Shown here: positions 3,701 through 25,627 of the stretch, in pieces
Position numbering within the stretch: the first letter of the stretch is position 1
Layout: each line of letters starts with the position of its first letter
From: Zarea fungicola
Taxonomy: Eukaryota; Ascomycota; Sordariomycetes; Hypocreales; Cordycipitaceae
Assembly: GCA_900169235.1 (NCBI GenBank)
Contig: FWCC01000028.1
Location: 91,957 to 155,956, forward strand
Direction: 5' to 3'
Length of the DNA stretch: 64,000 bases
Notes under the pieces: model-generated
Told to the model about the DNA's origin: nothing
What the model saw: the letters and a program-made list of their open reading frames with translations, nothing else
The model's database searches: none
Program-made: the position numbers and the translations under genes

Positions 3701-4260
3701 GGACCAGGAGGGCATCTACCGCAAGACTGGCGGCAACTCTCAGGTGAACCAAATCAAGGACGGCTTTGAAAAGAGCGAAAACTTTGACATTTCCGATCCC
3801 GATCTGGACATTACTGCCGTGACCAGTGTACTGAAGCAGTACTTCCGCAAGCTGCCGATGCCGCTGTTGACGTTTGATGTCTATGACCGTGTCTTGGAAT
3901 CAAATGGTACGTTTAAATTTTCCAAATATTATTAGTATTATTTGGATTATTTGGATTCTTGAAGCTAACAACTAGACAGCCATTTCCGACGAAGCAGAGC
4001 GCTGCTCGCAACTACGCAAGACGTTTGACATGATGCCTCAGAGCCACCGCGACTGCCTCGAGTTCCTCATGTTCCACTTGCAGCGTGTCGCCCAGCGCGA
4101 GCCGGAGAACCTCATGTCGCCCAAGAACCTGGCCGTCGTCTTTGCGCCCACGATTATGCGCGACTTGAGCATTGAGAGGGAAATGACTGACATGCATGCC
4201 AAGAATATTGCCGTGCAGTTTGTCATTGAAAACAGTCATATTATCTTTGAAGAGGCGTGA
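703..4260 (+). CDS. LIM-LIM-RhoGAP protein (Rga1-type Rho/Cdc42 GTPase-activating protein)
   Basis: Predicted GTPase-activating protein for a Rho/Cdc42-type GTPase, acting at the cortex in polarity and septation. Exons 703-780, 855-885, 983-2137, 2200-3906 and 3980-4260 give 1083 aa; all four introns have GT/AG ends and phases that join. Two LIM zinc modules fill the N terminus (CKGCGE, WHLDCFRC, CNNC, then CNAC, CFRCRNC, CMDC). A long Ser/Pro-rich low-complexity linker and a coiled coil (around 2620-3080) follow. The C-terminal RhoGAP domain shows the arginine-finger motif EGIYRKTGG and the block LMSPKNLAVVFAP. Two LIMs plus RhoGAP is the known layout of yeast Rga1/Rga2. The start was chosen because it places the first LIM cysteines in frame just after it. 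The specific target GTPase is inferred. Confidence 0.93.
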
Positions 4261-11701: not shown

Positions 11702-11837
11702 TGAACCCAAGGCGATTCGAACGCCTACTGTGTGGATGTTAGACAATGCCTCGCAGAAAGTCTCAAGAGTAGAAACGTACACCTTCAGGAAATTCCAGGA
11801 ACTGGAATCTGACGCGCTACCGTTGCGCCATGGGTCC
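11702..11837 (-). tRNA. tRNA-Trp(CCA), copy A, with anticodon-loop intron and a GT-AG type intron in the variable loop
   Basis: Read on the minus strand: acceptor GGACCCA (11837-11831), D arm GCGC-AACGGTA-GCGC, anticodon stem TCAGA and loop TTCCAG with anticodon CCA at 11805-11803. An 11-nt intron at 11801-11791 sits at the usual 37/38 position and can pair with the anticodon. The 3' anticodon strand CCTGA and variable-loop AGGT follow. Next comes a 53-nt block (11780-11728) beginning GTACGT and ending CTAACATCCACACAG. The last part is T, T arm AGGCG-TTCGAAT-CGCCT, TGGGTTC pairing with the acceptor (one G-U), and discriminator A. Without the two inserts the molecule folds as a standard tRNA-Trp with a five-base variable loop; the only defect seen is an A-C mismatch at the anticodon stem end. 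A TATAAAA-like box lies about 30-40 nt upstream. The B box lies intact in the T loop. Whether the variable-loop block is spliced is inference. Confidence 0.85.
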
Positions 11838-24934: not shown

Positions 24935-25128
24935 GGACCCATGGCGCAACGGTAGCGGTTAGTACCCTAGACTCGCAGCTGTTAGATCAACTGTACTAAC
25001 TTCCTCATCAGCGTCAGATTCCAGTTACAATGGAGTTTCCTGAAGGTGTACGTGCTAGCTAAACGAGTACCTCCAACACACATGTGCCTAACATCCACAC
25101 AGTAGGCGTTCGAATCGCCTTGGGTTCA
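24935..25128 (+). tRNA. tRNA-Trp(CCA), copy B, with three inserts including two GT-AG type introns
   Basis: Acceptor GGACCCA (24935-24941), then D arm GCGC-AACGGTA-GCG. A 54-nt block follows at 24958-25011, beginning GTTAGT, with TACTAAC at 24994-25000 and ending CATCAG. The tRNA resumes CGTCAGATTCCAG, as in copy A. A 13-nt anticodon-loop intron (25025-25037) comes next, then TCCTGAAGGT. A 55-nt block at 25048-25102 begins GTACGT and ends CTAACATCCACACAG. T, T arm AGGCG-TTCGAAT-CGCCT, TGGGTTC and A finish the molecule. With all three inserts removed the product is identical to copy A. The first block separates the D stem from the anticodon arm, so the unspliced transcript could not fold as a tRNA. 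Alternative: a dead copy. But intact acceptor, D, T and B-box elements and a terminator argue for a working gene if splicing occurs. Confidence 0.75.
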
Positions 25129-25150
25129 ATTCCCACCATTCGGTGAACAA

Positions 25151-25159
25151 TTTTTTTTT
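25151..25159 (+). terminator. RNA polymerase III terminator of tRNA-Trp copy B
   Basis: Nine T in a row, 22 nt past the tRNA 3' end, after a trailer nearly identical to that of copy A (CAATTCCCACC then TTCGGTG). Confidence 0.7.
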
Positions 25160-25175
25160 GATTCCCCCATCTAAT

Positions 25176-25217
25176 AATGGAGTTTCCTGAAGGCTAGGCT
25201 TGAATGCCTTGGGTTTA
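25176..25217 (+). pseudogene. Partial, damaged tRNA-Trp 3' half lacking the variable-loop GT-AG block
   Basis: Starts with AATGGAGTTTCCTGAAGG, the end of the anticodon intron plus the following exon of copy B. It continues straight into C-TAGGC-TTGAAT-GCC-TTGGGTT, the T arm and acceptor. The 55-nt block found at this point in copy B is absent at the exact junction. The T loop has lost a base and the last acceptor bases are changed, so it is not functional. The homology runs on through the trailer (AATTCACACGTTTCTGTG) to another T-run. Confidence 0.7.
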
Positions 25218-25326
25218 ATTCACACGTTTCTGTGACTTAATTTTTTGTTCCTCGTTTTTGTGTTTTTGTACCGCCTTTCGCATTCTACGCATGTGTTATA
25301 GGCTGGGTGGTTGGGATGCTGTAAAA

Positions 25327-25573: not shown

Positions 25574-25627
25574 NNNNNNNNNNNNNNNNNNNNNNNNNNN
25601 NNNNNNNNNNNNNNNNNNNNNNNNNNN
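25574..25627. other. Assembly gap (54 N)
   Basis: Run of N. The true length may differ. It truncates the membrane-protein-like fragment on its left. Confidence 0.99.

Follow-up and report, generated by a model that had tools for sequence, protein, structure and literature searches.

Two interrupted tRNA-Trp genes in one window

The stretch of DNA analysed here (64,000 nucleotides, hereafter the window) contains two of the four tRNA-Trp(CCA) genes found in this fungal genome, each of which carries, besides the ordinary anticodon intron between positions 37 and 38, one or two further inserts with the outward layout of a spliceosomal intron. The features of the two genes, copies A and B, and of the surroundings of copy B are listed below, with tRNA positions throughout numbered by hand.

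11702-11837, minus strand: tRNA-Trp(CCA) gene, copy A, without a D-arm intron
11728-11780, minus strand: spliceosomal-type intron in the variable loop of copy A, 53 nt
11791-11801, minus strand: anticodon intron of copy A at the ordinary 37/38 site, 11 nt as delimited
24935-25128, plus strand: tRNA-Trp(CCA) gene, copy B, with three inserts (D arm, anticodon 37/38, variable loop)
24958-25011, plus strand: spliceosomal-type intron in the D arm of copy B, 54 nt, between positions 24 and 25; GTTAGT ... TACTAAC ... CATCAG
24994-25000, plus strand: branch-point-like TACTAAC of this D-arm intron, 11 nt before the intron 3′ end
25025-25037, plus strand: ordinary 37/38 anticodon intron of copy B, 13 nt as delimited, with TGG complementary to the anticodon CCA
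25048-25102, plus strand: spliceosomal-type intron in the variable loop of copy B, 55 nt, between positions 47 and 48; GTACGT ... CTAACATCCACACAG, 3′ end CAG
25088-25092, plus strand: branch-point-like CTAAC of this variable-loop intron, 10 nt before the intron 3′ end
25129-25145, plus strand: 3′ trailer of copy B, 17 nt, ATTCCCACCATTCGGTG, the same in all four tRNA-Trp copies except for one A/T position
25151-25159, plus strand: run of nine T, resembling a Pol III terminator, 3′ of copy B
25176-25249, plus strand: degenerate 3′-half copy of a tRNA-Trp gene in which the variable-loop intron is missing and the end of the anticodon intron is kept

The original prediction had described two blocks in copy B, one in the D arm with GTTAGT, TACTAAC and CATCAG and one in the variable loop starting with GTACGT, and both are present in the sequence where it had placed them. 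Its statement that copies A and B share a product also stands, as deletion of the blocks and of the 37/38 intron leaves one identical 72-nt sequence from either gene. The variable-loop block of copy B has a single possible placement, and the D-arm block can be shifted by one base, with one of its two placements being GT-AG. A run of 54 N bases lies at 25574-25627.

Four tRNA-Trp loci with identical exons

Protein comparisons point to a Cordycipitaceae-like fungus within the Hypocreales. NADH dehydrogenase 4, encoded on the mitochondrial contig C218, shows 97% identity to an unnamed protein, 94–96% to proteins of Samsoniella and Cordyceps and 93–95% to those of Beauveria, and the best matches of a nuclear hexosaminidase are an unnamed protein (73%) and one from Purpureocillium lilacinum (70%). 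The genome searched (43.1 Mb in 456 contigs) returned four loci only for the copy-A query: A and B in the window, copy C on contig C341 and one copy on contig C318. Exons are identical in all four, and each gives the same 72-nt product. The variable-loop insert is present in every copy, its last 15 nt identical throughout; the D-arm insert is present in three of the four and absent from A, and the 37/38 introns of all four keep the TGG complementary to CCA.

No insert-free tRNA-Trp gene was found in the genome by the copy-A query, by a spliced query or by a D-arm motif. The 73-nt spliced query matched the first 42 bases of copy A only, leaving the exon segments of the three further known copies undetected, while the 14-base D-arm motif GGCGCAACGGTAGC has four zero-mismatch occurrences; no tRNA lay at the 17 of 17 one-mismatch sites and nine two-mismatch sites examined among the matches listed (317 near matches in all). 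Because the spliced query missed three known copies and the near-match sites were checked in part, this census is not proof of completeness. If it is complete, every UGG codon would depend on spliceosomal processing of tRNA-Trp. These genes are also poorly recognized by tRNA finders: ARAGORN with its intron option labels one of the four loci as Trp, and Rfam at its gathering threshold finds one of the two tRNA-Trp genes of the window.

Three structural details of the Trp loci may be recorded here. The trailer, which reads ATTCCCACC(A/T)TTCGGTG in all four copies, could fold as a small CACC/GGTG hairpin directly 5′ of the T run. The anticodon stem as drawn contains an A–C mismatch (31/39) in all four copies. 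In the D-arm inserts (24958-25000 in B, and those of the C341 and C318 copies), the 5′ splice site is complementary to the branch site (GTTAGTA/TACTAAY), with a G–T pair kept in one copy.

Inserts of the same layout in other tRNA genes

A genome search for like inserts in other tRNA genes, which the original prediction had proposed, revealed them in genes for Pro(AGG), Leu(AAG), Leu(UAA) and Thr(CGU), as follows.

C98:27449-27604 (L116): tRNA-Leu(UAA), one copy, insert of 58 nt at 34/35, among the Rfam tRNA matches
C172: tRNA-Thr(CGU), one interrupted copy, insert of 69 nt at 35/36, from pattern search
C299 and C305: tRNA-Pro(AGG), two copies, inserts of 58 nt each at 13/14, from pattern search
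C123 and C276: tRNA-Leu(AAG), two copies, inserts of 57 nt each at 18/19, from pattern search

The total thus comes to 13 GT-AG inserts in ten genes of five tRNA kinds, at six positions (24/25, 47/48, 13/14, 18/19, 34/35 and 35/36), none of which is the canonical 37/38. The Trp, Pro(AGG), Leu(AAG) and Leu(UAA) genes carry a 37/38 intron in addition; these 37/38 introns, 11–18 nt as delimited, are without the GT/CTAAC/AG layout. A run of at least five T follows all ten interrupted genes. The Leu(UAA) insert (L116) contains CTTTTTC, at which Pol III could stop inside the gene, and the two Pro(AGG) copies (L127 and L128) have upstream blocks in common, AAGCCAACATA and TTTCAACAA.TGGAATAT, perhaps promoter elements or a sign of shared origin.

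The Rfam tRNA search scored 63 of 1,250 candidates, 14 of the 63 being on the mitochondrial contig C218, and the pattern searches, which sought CTAAC...AG ahead of a T arm, gave the Thr, Pro(AGG) and Leu(AAG) genes. Other branch motifs and positions were sought in part, and further interrupted tRNA genes may exist. For the five Thr, Pro and Leu(AAG) inserts, the search pattern itself contained CTAAC and AG; what is independent of it is the GTAAG start at a junction defined by the tRNA, the length and the clean tRNA that remains.

Yields of the pattern runs exceeded those of reversed controls in four cases (18 versus 6, 13 versus 8, 11 versus 4 and 12 versus 10) and fell below them in two (64 versus 139 and 8 versus 12), so it is the tRNA context, and not the number of matches, that carries the case. 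The 18-match run contained four Trp genes and one Thr gene as real cases, seven ordinary tRNA-Glu genes by their matched strings and six others (three inspected, no tRNA). Five of 13 matches in another run were real (Leu(UAA), two Leu(AAG) and two Pro), two were tRNA-Val genes with the motif upstream only, and six were others, of which five were inspected and held no tRNA by ARAGORN. The 12-match run gave no real case as judged on matched strings; the 11-match run gave none judged real either, on the basis of two inspected loci, of ordinary tRNAs or of matched strings. Among eight matches in a further run, one was the D-arm intron already identified in the Trp gene of C341 and the rest were rejected on their strings, with one leading to a tRNA-Pro(UGG) gene. 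The 64-match run held the four Trp genes and the Thr gene; three more matches were inspected closely and 56 were not read as loci.

That these genes are pseudogenes or tRNA-derived repeats, the real tRNAs coming from other copies, has some precedent: as described in the accessible portion of PMC4090602, arm insertions in eukaryotic tRNAs mostly affect one of many synonymous genes and were supposed to mark pseudogenes, and the Thr(CGU) gene here does have an intact paralog. The Trp genes behave differently, their exons being identical in all four copies while inserts and flanks drift, with no intact tRNA-Trp found. The anticodon-complementary TGG retained in all four 37/38 introns and the T runs behind ten of ten genes likewise speak against decay, and we regard a pseudogene origin as highly improbable.

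Junctions defined by the tRNA

The junctions can be compared with uninterrupted relatives in the same genome. Removal of the insert from Thr(CGU) gives a sequence identical to the uninterrupted Thr(CGU) paralog on C170 over 72 of 72 bases. The tRNA-Pro(UGG) gene on C326 has an uninterrupted D arm, GGTCTAGCGG, which is exactly the junction predicted for spliced Pro(AGG).

With the GT-AG inserts removed, ARAGORN recognized a tRNA in all ten genes, eight with the right isotype and two with the label ‘???’ (Trp A and C); unspliced, it found nothing in four, a wrong isotype in four and the right one in two (Trp A and Thr). Copy B in particular was called tRNA-Trp once its two GT-AG inserts were removed and not when unspliced. 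When all GT-AG deletions of 40–90 nt were enumerated in six single-insert genes, some tRNA was called in 3/25, 3/20, 6/16, 8/18, 13/20 and 14/22 of them; the predicted deletion always gave the right isotype, as did some neighbouring deletions in Pro, Leu(AAG) and Thr. ARAGORN is too permissive for its readings alone to prove much, and they are no proof of unique junctions.

Splice signals shared with mRNA and U6 introns

All 13 inserts are 53–69 nt long, start with GT and end with AG (CAG in 11 and AAG in two, the latter being the 3′ splice sites of the Leu(AAG) inserts). The branch-point motif is CTAAC in 12 and CTAAT in one, 10–11 nt before the 3′ end of the insert, and the 5′ ends read GTACGT (four), GTTAGT (three), GTAAGT (three) or GTAAGC (three). 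GT and AG stand at the junction set by the tRNA structure in every case, with the D-arm and some other inserts shiftable by a base or two.

As a yardstick, a mechanical scan of the window for mRNA introns, with script limits of 45–109 nt and CTRAY required, produced 13 candidates of 50–97 nt, some of them surely false. The lengths of the tRNA inserts fall inside this range, false candidates included, and the distance from CTRAY to the 3′ end is 10–14 nt in nine of the 13 candidates and 6–35 nt overall. Two mRNA introns of one gene in the window, the removal of each of which joins an open frame, have the same layout as the inserts. One of these two served as the local comparison.

3907-3979, plus strand: mRNA intron of a RhoGAP-like gene (domain recognized by eye); GTACGT ... 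GCTAAC + 10 nt ... CAG

Its removal continues the RhoGAP domain, again by eye, and it is laid out like the variable-loop intron of tRNA-Trp. The U6 snRNA gene of this genome (C377:4441-4540, L046) is likewise interrupted, by a 59-nt insert GTAAGT ... CACTAAC ... CAG between GGAT and GACACGC, as delimited by eye. This U6 insert contains a B-box-like GTTCGAAAC.

Thirteen inserts in ten genes of five tRNA kinds give strong support to the original prediction, which took these blocks to be GT-AG introns that selection maintains for splicing. Chance can hardly be the explanation, given a variable-loop block whose last 15 bases are identical in four of four copies and four further kinds of insert of the same layout in other tRNA genes. 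On the strength of sequence layout, the inserts are very probably U2-type spliceosomal introns inside nuclear tRNA genes. This reading is supported by the layout itself, by the identical Trp exons, by the failure of the genome searches to find an insert-free Trp gene and by the exact insert-free Thr paralog. The D arm of Pro(UGG), the U6 insert and the fragment at 25176-25249, in which the variable-loop insert is missing at the junction, point the same way. Pol III would transcribe each gene as a whole up to the T run; the spliceosome would then read GT..., CTAAC or CTAAT, and AG and excise, still in the nucleus, the introns of the D arm, variable loop or anticodon loop, after which tRNA endonuclease and ligase would excise the ordinary 37/38 intron. 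For fungi generally, removal of the 37/38 intron by these two enzymes is established.

Alternatively, all inserts might be substrates of the tRNA splicing endonuclease, which would recognize structures akin to the bulge-helix-bulge motif, in which a 4-bp helix lies between two bulges that hold the splice sites, at positions other than the usual one. Non-canonical nuclear tRNA introns are known from nucleomorphs and Cyanidioschyzon merolae (PMC4090602 and PMC3978253, as far as their accessible text goes). The inverted repeat of the D-arm inserts could form a terminal stem, and under a lenient check a four-pair central helix is possible in one of the 13 inserts and three of the four pairs in five. 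Bulge-helix-bulge pairing exceeded that of shuffled sequences at the 0.05 level in none of the 13, in a test that only one of eight control 37/38 introns passed, and with the same reservation about the controls (one of eight passing) the four variable-loop inserts fell below the shuffled mean. No unusual fold was detected in the inserts (shuffle z from −1.6 to 1.3), and this alternative leaves unexplained why GT, CTAAC or CTAAT at 10–11 nt, and AG occur in 13 of 13. We consider it very unlikely. That an insert is kept as a long variable arm was rejected, in view of the lack of an unusual fold and of the drift in sequence.

The spliceosomal signals could also be real and yet matter little, if the RNAs were made by Pol II or rarely spliced and the interrupted copies contributed little. 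As a rule the spliceosome works coupled to Pol II transcription, and the Pro(AGG) insert splits the consensus A box. Against this stand the T runs behind ten of ten genes, the lack of any other source found for Trp, and U6, which is normally a Pol III RNA and which carries the same kind of intron here. An explanation along these lines seems extremely unlikely. Some features nevertheless weigh against spliceosomal introns in Pol III-transcribed tRNA genes: the split A box leaves transcription of Pro(AGG) unexplained, the CTTTTTC in the Leu(UAA) insert could stop Pol III, the 3′ splice site of the Leu(AAG) inserts is AAG, and the GTTAGTA/TACTAAY inverted repeat of the Trp D-arm inserts offers another possible reason for the conservation of those two blocks.

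Gain, loss and age of the introns

The original prediction held that the interiors of the variable-loop blocks of A and B do not align, which is true of that pair (p 0.12, not above shuffles) but not overall, as other pairs do align. For the variable-loop blocks, three of six pairs exceed shuffles (p 0.000, 0.003 and 0.010) and three do not (0.057, 0.103 and 0.123); for the D-arm blocks, two of three pairs exceed them (p 0.003 and 0.013) and one does not (0.160). With interiors alike beyond shuffles in five of nine Trp pairs, the introns seem older than the four copies, and the Trp inserts look like old homologous inserts that have since drifted, as judged by these alignments.

Copy B had further been taken as a sign of ongoing intron gain, a view that the wider comparison does not support: the D-arm intron is present in three of four copies, and A shares flanks with C, which has it. 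Flank likeness extends to both sides between A and C and to the upstream side between B and C (p 0.010), and the sequence beyond the fragment at 25176-25249 matches the downstream flanks of A and C; in flank comparisons with the C318 copy, no pair stands out at 0.05. As A, B and C are related and B, C and the C318 copy have the D-arm intron, its loss from A is no less likely than a gain. The clearest case of presence and absence is tRNA-Thr(CGU), with an interrupted and an uninterrupted paralog, which could reflect a change in either direction.

The fragment beside copy B differs from the spliced variable-loop junction by one substitution. It may derive from an RNA with the spliceosomal intron out and the 37/38 intron still in, or it may be older than the intron. 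The 37 bases directly behind copy B match C (score 12, with 0 of 300 shuffles as high), and with this match, which perhaps arises through the T run, a reading of the fragment as the original gene end is tentative.

Introner-like elements of fungi would explain presence and absence between paralogs, and such mobility had been raised by the original prediction. These elements occur as many near-identical copies, whereas the Thr insert, the sole one tested, has a single genomic match, itself; no mobile source of it was found. For relatives, scans of viral contigs for intron–exon junctions and tRNA bodies returned either no match or 17 contigs, none with such a tRNA-Trp in the 160 bases at each match, and two scans of other genome contigs for such introns returned no match.

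Implications and comparison with known systems

We think it likely that nuclear tRNA genes are ordinary hosts of spliceosomal introns in this fungal lineage. After transcription by Pol III, processing by the spliceosome would be required of, or open to, the whole of tRNA-Trp and no less than a part of the Pro(AGG), Leu(AAG), Leu(UAA) and Thr(CGU) tRNAs, and one gene could hold as many as two of these introns next to a 37/38 intron; translation of UGG would be spliceosome-dependent, and gain and loss at new positions would be continuing. Conventionally, the spliceosome handles the introns of mRNAs, and the tRNA endonuclease those of nuclear tRNAs. If our reading is true, this division between mRNA and tRNA splicing is broken and an essential tRNA is tied to the spliceosome, so that the mRNA splicing machinery would be needed just for reading the tryptophan codon. 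U6 would then not be the sole Pol III precursor open to the spliceosome, which would work on these tRNAs while they fold or before they do, and the inserts would explain how essential tRNAs can be missed by tRNA finders (ARAGORN labelling one of four Trp loci, Rfam finding one of two in the window).

Spliceosomal introns in fungal U6 genes offer one comparison, for which Tani and Ohshima 1989 and Canzler 2016 are reportedly the primary papers. As in the tRNA genes, GT-AG ends and a branch site there lie in a short structured Pol III RNA, and one such intron is present in this genome; the host differs, being U6 and not tRNA. According to the part of PMC5832005 available, introns are so far known to be frequent in just two small structured RNAs, U3 and U6. 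The introns of fungal U3 snoRNA genes are of the same class, GT-AG in nearly all (136, two exceptions, as printed), with copies that have and copies that lack them; their host is a snoRNA, and tRNA introns are not mentioned in that part of the source. No report of spliceosomal introns in tRNA genes was found in the open-licence papers searched, and the accessible sections of PMC6726248 and PMC2441463 contain nothing on them.

The tRNA introns of nucleomorphs and C. merolae resemble the present ones in occupying several positions, with up to three per gene in Guillardia (PMC4090602 and PMC3978253, from the text available). They differ in that the C. merolae introns are tied to bulge-helix-bulge motifs and the Guillardia inserts are 3–24 nt long, and none is described with GT, branch and AG signals in those portions of the two papers. 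Canonical 37/38 introns co-occur with the present inserts in the Trp, Pro(AGG), Leu(AAG) and Leu(UAA) genes. They too are distinct: eukaryotic tRNA genes are limited to one intron according to the portion of PMC8450103 available, and the canonical class has one per gene, at one position and, here, without the GT/CTAAC/AG layout. What is known already is thus the intron class and its presence in U6; what is new, relative to the literature found, is the host RNA class only, nuclear tRNA.
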